Source of the DNA: Flavobacteriaceae bacterium
GTDB lineage: Bacteria; Bacteroidota; Bacteroidia; Flavobacteriales; Flavobacteriaceae
Assembly (NCBI GenBank): GCA_024762795.1
Contig: JANTGS010000008.1
Location: forward strand, 1-58,937
Reading direction: 5' to 3'
Length of the DNA: 58,937 nucleotides
The notes under the pieces: generated by a model
The model's input: the letters and a program-made list of their open reading frames with translations, nothing else
Told to the model about the DNA's origin: nothing
The model's database searches: none
Translations under genes and position numbers: made by a program
In this document: one piece after another, positions 5,969 to 10,041 of the stretch
Position numbering within the stretch: the stretch's first letter is position 1
Layout: each line of letters starts with the position of its first letter

Positions 5969-7222
5969 ATGCAAATAACCGGTATGAAATATGGCGCGCC
6001 CATTTTAAAACTTTCAGGATTCCCTGTTCCCGAAGTACTAAATGCCAATGCAACACTCGATGAGATTGAGAAACTCATTCACAAAAGAAGTAAATGTGTT
6101 GTAAAGCCGGTTTTTTACGGAGGGGTAGGTAAGAAAGGGAAAGCCGGTCTTGTCAGGATTGTAAAATCAACCTCAGAGGCACTTCAGGCCAAACACGATC
6201 TGTTTTTTGCCGAACATAGTTTTCATAATCAGCGAATACAGTCAACAGGAGTTACTTATGAAGAGTTTATACCCTCTGATTATGAGATCTACTTTAATCT
6301 TAATGTTTGCACATCGTCACGCCGGGCCAGCTTTACCCTCACGCATCATGGAGGAGTTGACATTGAAGAATTACCTTCCGTCAAGATCATCAATAAATCA
6401 TTTAATGTTTTAACCGGACTCAAAGCTTATCATATTATCGATGCCTTGTCTGATCTTAATGCTCCTTCCGAAATTATCAGTCCCCTGGTACAATTCTTAC
6501 CTAAATTATGGAATCTTTACAATGATTTCGGATTTACAACCCTGGAGCTTAATCCCATTAGAATGGAAAAAGTGGGTAAAAAATATTTTCCTGTGGCCTG
6601 TGATTTTAAAGCTCAGTTCGATCAGGACAATCCGCACTGGAAACGACTTCAGCTTCCTCCGGAGATTTTTCATGCCAACCTTTCTAAATTTGAAGCAGAA
6701 ATTAATCAGCTCCGCACCTATCAGGGGCAAAGTGATGTAGTGGTCATCAATCCAAAAGGAAGCATTACCTCTTTTATGTTTGGTGGAGGAGCCAACAGTG
6801 CAGCAACAGAAGTATTATCGCAAAAAGCAACAATCTCCAGTGATTTTGGTGGAAATCCACCGTATGAGAAAATGTATCAGATAGCCTCTATAGTTTTTAA
6901 ATACTGGCTAAAACAATCTAATGTATTACTGATCATAGGAGGAAAAGCCAATAACACTGACATTTTTGTAACCTATAAAGGCATGTTTGATGCACTGAGG
7001 GATTATGTAAACGAAAATGGAAAACCTGATATTTATGTAGTTTCCGGACGCGGAGGACCTAACCTGATCAAAGGCTTTACTTATGCTGCCAATATCCTGG
7101 ATGCACTTGAAATTCCTTATAAATTTTTTGGGTATGACAGTTCCATGATAGAAGTGATTCAATATGCTGTAGATATTGATAATTACCTGCTGGAAAAACA
7201 CACACAAAAAATATCTCTTTAA
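5969..7222 (+). CDS. ATP-citrate-lyase-like small subunit (ATP-grasp plus citrate-binding domain)
   Basis: 417 residues, about the size of the small (AclB-type) subunit of split bacterial ATP-citrate lyase. The N-terminal half is an ATP-grasp/succinyl-CoA-synthetase-beta-like region (VVKPVFYGGVGKKGKAG near residue 45; TTLELNPIRM near 190). The C-terminal part matches the citrate-binding domain of human ACLY block by block: NPKGSITSFMFGGGANS (NPKGRIW...GGGAS in ACLY), LLIIGGKANNTD (LIIGGSIANFTN), FKGIVRAIRDY-like 'YKGMFDALRDY', and 'SGRGGPN' (RRGGPN). The partner gene begins 104 bases downstream. Family knowledge: together these subunits make citryl-CoA from citrate, CoA and ATP. I infer a citrate- or homologue-activating ligase; the substrate is not proven because the partner is unusual. 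Confidence 0.8.
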   Translation: MQITGMKYGAPILKLSGFPVPEVLNANATLDEIEKLIHKRSKCVVKPVFYGGVGKKGKAGLVRIVKSTSEALQAKHDLFFAEHSFHNQRIQSTGVTYEEFIPSDYEIYFNLNVCTSSRRASFTLTHHGGVDIEELPSVKIINKSFNVLTGLKAYHIIDALSDLNAPSEIISPLVQFLPKLWNLYNDFGFTTLELNPIRMEKVGKKYFPVACDFKAQFDQDNPHWKRLQLPPEIFHANLSKFEAEINQLRTYQGQSDVVVINPKGSITSFMFGGGANSAATEVLSQKATISSDFGGNPPYEKMYQIASIVFKYWLKQSNVLLIIGGKANNTDIFVTYKGMFDALRDYVNENGKPDIYVVSGRGGPNLIKGFTYAANILDALEIPYKFFGYDSSMIEVIQYAVDIDNYLLEKHTQKISL

Positions 7223-7326: not shown

Positions 7327-10041
7327 ATGAAACAAGTTGACAATTCCTTTTCATACTTTGTAGGCATACAAAATTTACAAGATGTTGCTCCAAAAGATGC
7401 ACGAATTTGCGTAATGAATATTTTAGGCAATGAAAGCCGGAAAGTAACCCCGGTTTCGCATGCTTTTAGTGGTGGTAATGTAGTCGCCGGTGTTCAATAC
7501 GGCCGTTCCGGAATACTGGAAACCCCTATAGGTGATATTCCGGTTTATCCGCGTTTGGCACAGGTGATAAAACATCATCAGTTCGACACCGGAGTGATCT
7601 ATTTGCCTCCGGGTGCTGTTTTTCATGCCGTTACCGAGCTATTACATTATAATAAATCTTTAAAAAGGATTGTGATTGTAACCGAAAAAATGAGTGTAAA
7701 AGATCAACTGGTCATTCGTGAGATCTGTCAGTCCAATCAAGTAGATGTTTTTGGGGCCAACTCGCTAGGTGTAGGGGATTCATGGAATAAGGTAAGAATC
7801 GGAGGTGCTCTGGGAGGGGACAAACCTGAAGAGTCATTGCTCAAAGGTTCTATTGCCATTCACAGTAATTCCGGGAATTTTGGAAATACCATTGCTTCCT
7901 ATTTAAAAACATCCGGATTTGGTACTACCACCATCATCAGTTCAGGGAAAGATAAGATCATTCAGTTTGGAATAGCTGAATTTTTACATGCCGCCCAAAA
8001 CGACAAACGTACCAAAGCTGTTGTGTTATATGTTGAACCGGGTGGCCGATATGAACAGGAGGCACTGAATATGATCAAAAACAAAAAACTGAAATTTGAC
8101 AAACCTATGGTGGTTTGTGTAACCGGCAGATGGAAATCTCAACTCACCCGTGCGGTGGGCCATGCAGGTGCGCTGGCAGGAGATGGTGATGGAGCCGAAT
8201 CAAAAGAGAAGTGGTTTGATAATTACCTTGAAATGAATGCTTTTGATCCGGAGAAACCCGATAAAGTTGGTAAAAAAGGAATTCGTGTCAAATCCATTCA
8301 ACATATTCCCATAGCGGTAAAAGCGGTTTTTGATAAACTTAAGTGGAATAATGATTTTAAGCCTATTGGCGATCTGAGTCTGAAACCCTGGATGGGAAAA
8401 GACTTTGAATATAAATTGCCCATTACATTAAGGCTCCCTGTTGTGGAAGCCATGGATCCCTATAATCATGAGATCAAAAAGTTCAACAAAGAATTGGGTG
8501 GTTCCTATTTACGAAGGAAAATGCGCAATGCTTCAGGAGCTTCTCGTATCGATCCCAAAACACAAATTGCCGAACTCTACAATTCTCCTGTAGTTGATCT
8601 GGTAGAATATCCTTTTGAAAGCAATATTATTTTTACATTGATTAAAGAACATCCACATCAAGAAGACCTTCCTTTTGTCAATGCTTGTCTTAATTATTTA
8701 AGCAGATCTGAAGACATTTATTACGAAGCCATACTGGTTGCAGAACAAAATAATGCAACTCCCAACCAGGCACTGATGACCGCAGTAAGTATGATGGGAA
8801 ATAACAGTCAGTTTGTATTGGGAAAGAAATATATAAGAGGCTTGTTAACACTGCTTACCGAAATGGAGGTAAAAGATAAGTTTACCCCTTTTGATCTGGA
8901 AAAAGCATCTAAAATTGCAAAAAAACTATTCCCTACAGGGAAGCTAAATCAGGATGATTTTGCAAAAATGATGATTAGTGAACTGAATGAGAAGATCAGT
9001 AAAAGTAATATCATTCAATTCGTACTGCACTTTATAAAAAATAATAAATTAGAAAACTGTAATCTATTCCTTATAGCAGCTATTTATACAGATATTGCCT
9101 TTCAGGCTTTATTACTAAAAAAAATCAGCCGGAACACTGTGGAAAACTTGATCACTTTTACAGGGATTGAAGCCAGAATTTCTGTATTAGCAGGAATTAA
9201 TCCGTTGAAAAATACACTCCTTAAAAAAATAAGAAAAAGAGAACCTGTAAAAATTCTTCAAACACCGTTTACTGAGGTCGCTTTTCAAAGTGTTTTTGAC
9301 AGACCCCCAAGAGACACTGAACTTCAGGAGTTTCAGGCTTTACTGGCCCTAACCCTGACCAATGGAGTTGGGACCATCAGTGCGAAGGGAGCAAAAGAAA
9401 GTGTTAGCGCCCGAAATAATATATCTACCGCCTTTGCCGGTTTTATGTCAAATACCGGACTGGCACACGGTGGCGCCGGTTTTGAAGCAGTAGATTTCTT
9501 AATCGATGCTTTCCATAAAATGAAAATATCCGATCCCGGGAAAATTCCTGATGCCTTCAGGATCAAATCCCTTAGCGATGATGTGGCGATTCAATACCTG
9601 GAATACAAACAAAAAGCCAAAGCTGAAGGAAAAACCAGCTACAACAGAATTCCTTGTATCAACCATCCTGTTTTTAAAGGGAATCCTATAAATACAGATC
9701 CGCGAGAAGATTATATCTATCATCATTTTAAACAGCTTAAGATCGATAATGTATTTTGGGAGTTTTATCATGAACTGGTCAATTCTCTTTTTAAAGTGGG
9801 AGTTTCCTCCAACGTATATTGTGTAAATATTGATGCTGTGATTGCTGTAATATCCCTTAAATTGATGTGGCCGGATTATAAAAAGGATCGTATCAGAAAA
9901 GCAGATATGCAAAAAATCGGATTTATTATTTTCTTATTAGGAAGAATGACAGGCGTTTCTGCTGAAATTTCGGATCATCTCGACCGAGGCCAGGATATGG
10001 ACTGCCGTACACCGGTAAGTGAAACAGTTTATGTAGTGTAA
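7327..10041 (+). CDS. Oversized ATP-citrate-lyase-like large subunit with two citryl-CoA-lyase-type modules
   Basis: 904 residues against roughly 600 for a standard AclA. Residues 1-350 are SucD-like, with the phospho-His loop VGHAGALAGDGDGA (H279). Residues about 399-630 align by eye with the ACLY citryl-CoA lyase part (S-R-I-D...Q...LY..P then F450-x3-C-L, later NLFLIAA), but the positions of ACLY H900 and D1026 are S461 and A585, so this copy looks inactive. Residues about 640-904 are a second copy: PFTEV, TNGVG, LAHGGAG, NHPVFKGNP (H780, matching H975), NIDAVI (D836, matching D1026) and LLGRMTG. Here ACLY H900 is N679, and H714 sits in a citrate-synthase-like HGGA. I infer an intramolecular pseudo-dimer; whether it cleaves citryl-CoA is open. 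No terminator is obvious after it. Confidence 0.75.
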   Translation: MKQVDNSFSYFVGIQNLQDVAPKDARICVMNILGNESRKVTPVSHAFSGGNVVAGVQYGRSGILETPIGDIPVYPRLAQVIKHHQFDTGVIYLPPGAVFHAVTELLHYNKSLKRIVIVTEKMSVKDQLVIREICQSNQVDVFGANSLGVGDSWNKVRIGGALGGDKPEESLLKGSIAIHSNSGNFGNTIASYLKTSGFGTTTIISSGKDKIIQFGIAEFLHAAQNDKRTKAVVLYVEPGGRYEQEALNMIKNKKLKFDKPMVVCVTGRWKSQLTRAVGHAGALAGDGDGAESKEKWFDNYLEMNAFDPEKPDKVGKKGIRVKSIQHIPIAVKAVFDKLKWNNDFKPIGDLSLKPWMGKDFEYKLPITLRLPVVEAMDPYNHEIKKFNKELGGSYLRRKMRNASGASRIDPKTQIAELYNSPVVDLVEYPFESNIIFTLIKEHPHQEDLPFVNACLNYLSRSEDIYYEAILVAEQNNATPNQALMTAVSMMGNNSQFVLGKKYIRGLLTLLTEMEVKDKFTPFDLEKASKIAKKLFPTGKLNQDDFAKMMISELNEKISKSNIIQFVLHFIKNNKLENCNLFLIAAIYTDIAFQALLLKKISRNTVENLITFTGIEARISVLAGINPLKNTLLKKIRKREPVKILQTPFTEVAFQSVFDRPPRDTELQEFQALLALTLTNGVGTISAKGAKESVSARNNISTAFAGFMSNTGLAHGGAGFEAVDFLIDAFHKMKISDPGKIPDAFRIKSLSDDVAIQYLEYKQKAKAEGKTSYNRIPCINHPVFKGNPINTDPREDYIYHHFKQLKIDNVFWEFYHELVNSLFKVGVSSNVYCVNIDAVIAVISLKLMWPDYKKDRIRKADMQKIGFIIFLLGRMTGVSAEISDHLDRGQDMDCRTPVSETVYVV

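Follow-up and report, generated by a model that had tools for sequence, protein, structure and literature searches.

A putative type II ATP citrate lyase in a Flavobacteriaceae genome combines an invariant asparagine/histidine active-site pattern with a predicted extra domain of citryl-CoA lyase fold

The stretch of DNA analyzed here (the window; 58,937 nucleotides of contig JANTGS010000008.1, assembly GCA_024762795.1, from a Flavobacteriaceae bacterium) carries two adjacent genes, B and A, which are both intact, with B directly upstream of A (Table 1). We propose that they encode the small and large subunits of a type II ATP citrate lyase (type II ACL), an enzyme whose C-terminal half would combine a citrate-synthase-like catalytic module, altered at one histidine, with a second, catalytically dead domain of citryl-CoA lyase (CCL) fold. 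The product of gene A matches the Pfam CoA-binding, ligase, and Citrate_synt families (the last at residues 620-883, E = 2.6e-8 for the protein), and no Pfam family matches its residues 405-619 at E = 0.001.

Table 1. Positions of the gene pair and of its domains and key residues in the window (residue numbers are those of the gene A product; counts are over aligned type II rows that have the position)
Feature	Positions	Strand	Basis or remark
Gene B, small subunit, 417 amino acids, ATP-grasp and citrate-binding domain	5969-7222	+	Pfam ATP-grasp_2, Citrate_bind PF16114
Gene A, putative large subunit of type II ACL, 904 amino acids	7327-10041	+	
Succinyl-CoA synthetase alpha-like ligase domain of A, residues ~20-320	7384-8286	+	Best solved relative 6hxq_A
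E237 of EPGG	8035-8037	+	Aligned with Glu of GE.GG in citryl-CoA synthetase; 87/87
H279, GHAGA loop, presumed phospho-histidine	8161-8163	+	87/87; role by homology
First CCL-fold domain (predicted), residues 405-632, without catalytic residues	8539-9222	+	AlphaFold2 model, structure alignment, hhalign
Second, catalytic CCL/citrate-synthase-like domain, residues 633-904	9223-10038	+	Pfam Citrate_synt; hhalign to citrate synthase profile
N679, site of ACLY H900 and of the HE histidine of citrate synthase	9361-9363	+	
H714, histidine of HGG (site of the citrate synthase GPLHG histidine; type I ACL has Phe)	9466-9468	+	
H780, counterpart of ACLY H975	9664-9666	+	
R793 of DPRE	9703-9705	+	Aligned with DPR arginine of citrate synthase; 89/89
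D836, counterpart of ACLY D1026	9832-9834	+	87/87
R873	9943-9945	+	Pairs with an Arg conserved in citrate synthase and type I ACL; 87/87
R894 of RTP, invariant	10006-10008	+	87/87; possible counterpart of citrate synthase C-terminal Arg

A sequence-only reading of gene A had picked out four residues of its lyase module, N679, H714, H780, and D836, and the codons of the window (beginning at 9361, 9466, 9664, and 9832) confirm their positions; the span 9361-9834 is exactly that of these four residues. We aligned 93 large subunits, of which 89, the window's included, are distinct, and two of the distinct rows are truncated before D836. N679, H714, H780, and R793 are invariant in all 89 distinct sequences, and D836, R873, E880, and R894 are invariant in the 87 rows that reach them. 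Eighty of the rows came from a contig scan seeded with two peptide patterns, one containing H780 and one beginning three residues after N679, and were therefore selected with some bias. N679, H714, H780, and D836 are also constant in the window and the first 12 relatives, which were collected without motif seeds. Given this invariance across 89 distinct sequences (87 of 87 for D836), the four-residue pattern is not a product of chance, and the concern that homologues might show the N679/H714 pair to be random falls away. The distance from 679 to 714 is 35 residues in 54 of 87 type II rows and 42 in the remaining 33, which carry a 7-residue insert.

In profile alignments, N679 pairs with a His of both citrate synthase and type I ACL, H714 pairs with the citrate synthase His and the type I ACL Phe, and H780 and D836 pair with a His and an Asp, respectively, in both families. 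These pairings and the distance of 35 bear out the earlier placement of N679 at the site of ACLY H900 and of H714 at the Phe of the ACLY FGGA motif, and the equivalents of H975 and D1026 are indeed kept. In a clean hhalign comparison, R793 and R873 also pair with citrate synthase residues, and R894 has no partner in the citrate synthase profile. By these alignments, the catalytic module carries the citrate synthase catalytic set (H714, H780, D836, R793, and R873), with an Asn at the substrate-side His. We take H274, H320, and D375 of pig citrate synthase to be the counterparts of H714, H780, and D836, and H238 to be its substrate-side HE histidine.

The citrate synthase profile comprised 46 rows from 48 genes (L151 and L153 were dropped by a position filter; comparison loci and genomes carry the prefixes L and G). 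The pair of histidines (HE or HT, then HGG, HGL, or HGR) is present in 48 of the 48 genes, at a distance of 35 in 34 genes and 36 in 14. The type I ACL profile is thin, with six sequences from genomes of the phylum of G597, classed as type I-like by their length and sequence alone. It omits the locus-less match G670 and a fragment, L174, whose sequence begins beyond the H900 site. All six have Phe at the H714 site, 35 residues from the H900 site, which is Asn (DNGP) in four and His (DHGP) in two, so that an Asn at 679 is ruled out as a unique feature of type II. The four with DNGP in place of the catalytic DHGP are L167, L168, L169, and L170 (genomes G669, G672, G671, and G668), and L167-L169 are single open frames of 1024-1028 amino acids, hence bacterial single-chain ACLY-like proteins. 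The free CCL of Hydrogenobacter thermophilus (6hxp) has both the DHG and the AHGG histidines, 35 residues apart as counted by eye, and the same His in a free CCL excludes the H714 state as a type II invention. Among citrate synthase, CCL, and type I ACL, then, only type I ACL departs at the HGG-histidine site. The sequence-only reading had held that ACLY and CCL alike lack this His, which is correct for type I ACL (Phe in six of six) and incorrect for CCL.

Overall similarity places the module less clearly than its residues do. The catalytic domain matches the citrate synthase profile at E = 4.5e-8 (hhalign, 94.9%) and the thin six-sequence type I ACL profile at E = 3.9e-6 (87.2%), values that do not separate the two, and we dropped the notion that the module is much nearer citrate synthase than type I ACL; the sequence-only view that it is nearer citrate synthase in kind fared no better. 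Type I ACL itself matches the citrate synthase profile more strongly (E = 2.9e-17) than type II does. In a catalytic-domain tree of 53 rows, the type II branch is some 6 changes per site long, with a warning of long-branch joining, and the tree does not decide between citrate synthase and CCL/type I ACL as the group that type II joins. When 296 genomes from the phylum of the window were searched for type I ACL with PF24948 (E = 1e-60), nothing matched, controls included, and the search is hence uninformative.

Residues 405-632, which precede the catalytic domain, are predicted to be an additional CCL-fold domain, complete but lacking the catalytic residues. The family profile of residues 405-628 matches that of residues 629-904 over 202 columns (hhalign, 98%, E = 1.9e-13). 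An AlphaFold2 model of residues 405-632 alone (predicted local distance difference test score [pLDDT], 93.9) can be aligned over its full length with human ACLY 844-1079 (Z = 15.1, 212 residues, root mean square deviation [rmsd] 4.1) and with CCL 6hxp 9-229 (Z = 14.9, 203 residues, rmsd 3.8). The top 23 rows, with Z of 15.1-12.9, all belong to ACLY or CCL, and the next rows are citrate synthases, from Z = 10.4 downward; helical models, however, can reach Z of 13-14 without a clear relative. In Foldseek, the first 34 of the 50 rows listed are ACLY or CCL chains, ahead of citrate synthases (E of 1.8e-3 to 3.5e-2). The catalytic residues are not kept in this domain: in the profile alignment, the aligned positions are variable or without a partner. 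A Pro-Asn pair at residues 479-480 (window 8761-8766) is invariant in 88 of the 88 rows that have the position, and the rest of the domain is strongly variable.

Because a complete CCL-fold domain would thus precede the catalytic one, the C terminus of A is predicted to be a fused pseudo-dimer of CCL-fold domains. The AlphaFold2 model of residues 345-904 (pLDDT, 88.8; predicted template modeling score [pTM], 0.90) overlays, with its region 397-893, one citrate synthase monomer (2c6x 8-352; Z = 24.9, 333 aligned residues, rmsd 3.4), and the two-domain profile matches the citrate synthase profile over 337 columns (E = 8.6e-9, 95.7%). On these grounds we predict that the two domains are placed like the two halves of a citrate synthase monomer, with the first domain complete. 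CCL and ACLY chains are absent among the 50 matches listed for this model, an absence that carries no weight. We also considered residues 397-904 as a citrate synthase with an insert, and rejected this in view of the end-to-end alignment of 405-632 alone with CCL domains and of the Foldseek ranking, the latter at weak E values. Of the two halves of citrate synthase, the N-terminal one is the better match for the first domain (70.2%, 84 columns, against 0.2% for the C-terminal one). Since the matched stretch corresponds to the beginning of a CCL-like domain, and since type I ACL matches it too (85.2%, with a citrate synthase profile that includes one type II row), this match shows no shared duplication; neither the tree nor the half-by-half profile comparison decides whether a duplication is shared with citrate synthase.

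The name type II ACL is attributed to Hugler and Sievert 2011 in PMC3522073, and it is applied to Magnetococcus and tubeworm symbionts in PMC3522073, PMC6315080, and PMC6783814. N. gracilis is reported to have two genes with very low similarity to known ACLs (PMC3578206), citrate cleavage is reported for Magnetococcus MC-1, in which only the postulated type II genes are present (PMC6783814), and some Planctomycetes enzymes have already been placed between citryl-CoA synthetase/lyase and type II ACL (PMC5459899). Our contig scan of named genomes returned at least 501 relatives, and the best 80, which were kept, include sequences from a Lamellibrachia endosymbiont, Magnetococcales, and Nitrospina. 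The gene A product is 43.3% identical over 910 residues to that of the tubeworm symbiont (L125), 42.5% over 915 residues to that of a member of the Magnetococcales (L123), and 42.3% over 925 residues to that of Nitrospina (L129). B lies directly upstream of A in 70 of the 80 loci, nine more are cut by the contig start, and L104 is without B. At L104, on a Nitrospinaceae metagenome-assembled genome (MAG) chromosome, no small-subunit match occurs near A, whose open frame is short at its start. On a plasmid of Paraburkholderia sp. PGU19 (L040, 6680-7928), the B upstream of A aligns as three separate pieces, as if broken. The published type II primer sites correspond to AKEEWF and NGFEAIA (NGFEAIS in two), the latter immediately after H714-G-G, and in L125, L109, and L118 the forward primer has 3-4 and the reverse primer 1-4 mismatches, with amplicon lengths of 1318-1330. 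We therefore assign A and B, by homology, to type II ACL, of which the window gene would be a new member.

The ligase half of the pair resembles citryl-CoA synthetase. Its small subunit is the best solved relative of the A ligase domain (6hxq_A, E = 3.8e-31), and its large subunit is that of B (6hxq_B, E = 1e-32). N328, T330, and R361 of B align with N346, T348, and R379 of ACLY, which we take to be citrate-binding residues, and N328, N329, T330, and R361 are constant in 68 of 68 distinct B proteins. N329 of type II B occupies the F347 site of ACLY, where citryl-CoA synthetase likewise has Asn. In the tubeworm symbiont (L125), the pair is followed by genes for isocitrate dehydrogenase, aconitase, and transhydrogenase. 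Plasmids of Microvirga, Paraburkholderia, Sinorhizobium, and others carry copies as well (20 records, with query coverage of at least 80% in 19); in four of the six annotated loci among the eight plasmid records examined, genes for tri-/dicarboxylate or 2-hydroxycarboxylate transport or for tricarballylate lie no more than 9 kilobases away.

Given that the ligase half is nearest citryl-CoA synthetase, that the citrate-site residues are invariant, and that gene context and the MC-1 report point the same way, ATP- and CoA-dependent citrate cleavage is the most likely function. We consider it probable that B and A form a type II ACL that works by a citryl-CoA route, with a tandem CCL half and with cleavage in the C-terminal half. 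We infer the substrate, the direction, the place of cleavage, and the roles of the residues as follows. The ligase half (B with residues 20-320 of A) would phosphorylate H279 with ATP, the phosphate would move from H279 to citrate, and the same half would make citryl-CoA, which the C-terminal half would split into acetyl-CoA and oxaloacetate. The first domain (405-632) probably stands in for the partner that free CCL takes from a second copy; in the second domain (633-904), acid-base catalysis would fall to H714, H780, and D836, as it does in citrate synthase, with N679 in place of the substrate-side histidine.

Several points weigh against this reading. The Foldseek E values for the first domain are weak, the best being 1.8e-3, and the tandem arrangement depends on AlphaFold2 models, which known structures may have influenced. 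The type II primers match only partially in L129, L106, and L123 (in L123 the reverse primer only), neither site is present in L114, and the best primer matches in the window gene have eight mismatches, the reverse one being off-site; at the two primer places the window protein reads SKEKWF and AGFEAV. The substrate could be a relative of citrate, as tricarballylate genes adjoin one plasmid locus. Within the available portions of the literature, our search found no assay of a purified type II ACL. Finally, an ordinary citrate synthase is present in 20 of 22 genomes carrying type II ACL, so that gene content does not settle the direction of the reaction. The other two, G598 (Nitrospinaceae) and G599 (Magnetococcales), both MAGs that may be incomplete, gave no match to the citrate synthase family; these two look as if type II ACL were their sole enzyme for this step. 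The window's own genome has two different citrate synthase family genes side by side (G000:C71:3058-5593; L131 and L132).

The sequence-only reading had gone on to suggest that the altered active site implies another reaction, either a Claisen condensation in the direction of citrate synthase or the cleavage of a different acyl-CoA (2-methylcitryl-CoA, a tricarballylate-derived one, or similar). Such a reaction would suit the citrate-synthase-like catalytic set, the Asn at the substrate-side His in 89 of 89 sequences, and the tricarballylate operon and acyl-CoA thioesterases beside some plasmid copies. However, type I-like ACLs have the same Asn, the ligase half is nearest citryl-CoA synthetase, the residues of B aligned with the ACLY citrate site are invariant, and 20 of 22 carriers already have a citrate synthase, as does the window's own genome; moreover, citrate cleavage has been reported for type II lineages (PMC6783814). 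We therefore did not retain the suggestion and judge a different reaction improbable.

Cleavage of citryl-CoA could also take place in the ligase half, with the C-terminal module only loading CoA and acting allosterically. E237, which we take from its numbering to be the counterpart of ACLY E599, is kept in type II, in favor of this alternative. It is the mechanism that Wei et al. 2023 propose for human ACLY, in which the place of splitting is disputed between the citrate-synthase-like module and a ligase half with an allosteric module (PMC10115795); according to that paper, citryl-CoA forms in the ligase domain of the D1026A mutant, and E599 and F347 are given roles there, which also speaks for such a mechanism. 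Yet all 68 type II B proteins, like citryl-CoA synthetase, have Asn (N329) at the F347 site, and the whole catalytic set is invariant in the module, which would be unexpected for a pure spacer. We see only a small chance that type II ACL cleaves in its ligase half, and we favor cleavage in the C-terminal half.

The gene pair appears to have been acquired horizontally. A whole-protein search with A in 199 genomes of the window's family gave matches in 195; among the matches listed, all but the window's lie within residues 6-345, the succinyl-CoA synthetase-like part, so that the full protein was seen in no other genome of the family among these matches. A C-terminal query, run against 395 genomes of the phylum, matched 6, the window's among them. 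The gene gcvT, just upstream of B, is 84% identical to that of the same-genus genome G146 and 57% identical to those of G580 and G581, and the downstream DUF2520 gene is 56% identical to its G146 relative and 41% to that of G580, with no match in G581. A is 82% identical to the G580 copy (L051) and 81% to the G581 copy (L052), B is 91% identical to that of L052, and G146, which is about 90% complete, has only a SucD-like match for A. Horizontal acquisition of the pair is the simplest account of these comparisons; loss of the pair in other genomes may be an alternative. That A is a decayed or non-functional homologue is hardly credible: the first CCL-fold domain has no catalytic residues and B is in pieces in one plasmid copy, but both window genes are intact, the catalytic columns are invariant across phyla, and A and B are 81% and 91% identical to the copy of a distant host (L052).

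The neighbors of the window pair, gcvT and the DUF2520 gene, pointed to no functional link. TIGR03710 oxidoreductases occur in 24 of 24 genomes (above the cut-off in 14), and even the same-genus genome that lacks ACL has them; they are not diagnostic. At other type II ACL loci, an acyl-CoA thioesterase gene overlaps the end of A on a Gemmobacter fulvus plasmid (L041, 10697-13572), with tcuB and tcuA then following on the other strand, and an acyl-CoA thioesterase gene is also near A in Microvirga (L038). One gene cluster recurs beside type II ACL in L084, L091, L093, L097, and L098 (Holophagaceae, Geothrix; blastp clustering), and in L091 its member is a citrate synthase (Pfam), just downstream on the opposite strand.

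In the portions of the literature on type II ACL that were available, we found no residue-level or domain-level description, and neither a tandem CCL domain nor the N679/H714 pattern, in a search that fell short of the two likeliest sources, Hugler and Sievert 2011 and Verschueren et al. 2019. As far as that search goes, both the invariant Asn and His at these sites and a first CCL domain predicted to be dead would be new for type II. Because residues on both sides of the ACLY cleavage-site dispute differ in type II enzymes (Asn for H900, His for the FGGA Phe, and Asn for F347), with the rest kept, these enzymes form a natural mutant series for that dispute. The predicted tandem domain, if true, would mean that each lyase core is served by fewer ligase units in type II than in type I; it also bears on the relation of citrate synthase to CCL. 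A tentative and rather unlikely extension is that the type II C-terminal module is a living intermediate between single-domain CCL and citrate synthase: CCL would have been duplicated in tandem, the first copy remaining whole but catalytically dead, and citrate synthase would have arisen from such a fused pair after the first copy was cut down; type II would also be a natural variant that cleaves citryl-CoA in a citrate-synthase-like module without the H900 histidine. As a little-studied second bacterial type of ATP-dependent citrate-splitting enzyme, with one domain apparently worn out and one altered, type II ACL may be useful for the study of both mechanism and evolution.

The window pair has the layout of known type II ACLs, namely, one gene for a small ATP-grasp subunit and a second for a large subunit homologous to ligase-alpha and citrate synthase proteins, and it differs in its location in a Flavobacteriaceae genome, apparently as a result of transfer. 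Citrate synthase (for example, 2c6x) has counterparts of H714, H780, R793, D836, and R873. It differs in its substrate-side His (48 of 48 genes, versus Asn in 89 of 89 type II sequences) and in being stand-alone, whereas type II A is fused to a ligase-alpha domain (residues 20-320); in addition, residues 397-893 of type II have about 160 additional unaligned residues, and the sequence match is E = 4.5e-8 profile to profile. The H. thermophilus citryl-CoA synthetase (6hxq) is the best solved relative of both ligase parts, and the free CCL (6hxp) has the HGG His, GH His, and NVD Asp in common with type II; unlike type II ACL, this CCL consists of one domain and has retained the DHG His at the site of the type II Asn, and the H. 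thermophilus synthetase and lyase are separate proteins. Type I ACL (human ACLY; AclBA) likewise has a ligase domain followed by a lyase module, and its citrate-site residues N346, T348, and R379 have counterparts in type II. In contrast to type II, it carries Phe at the H714 site and F347 where type II has Asn, and it has a single CCL domain in place of the two predicted for type II.

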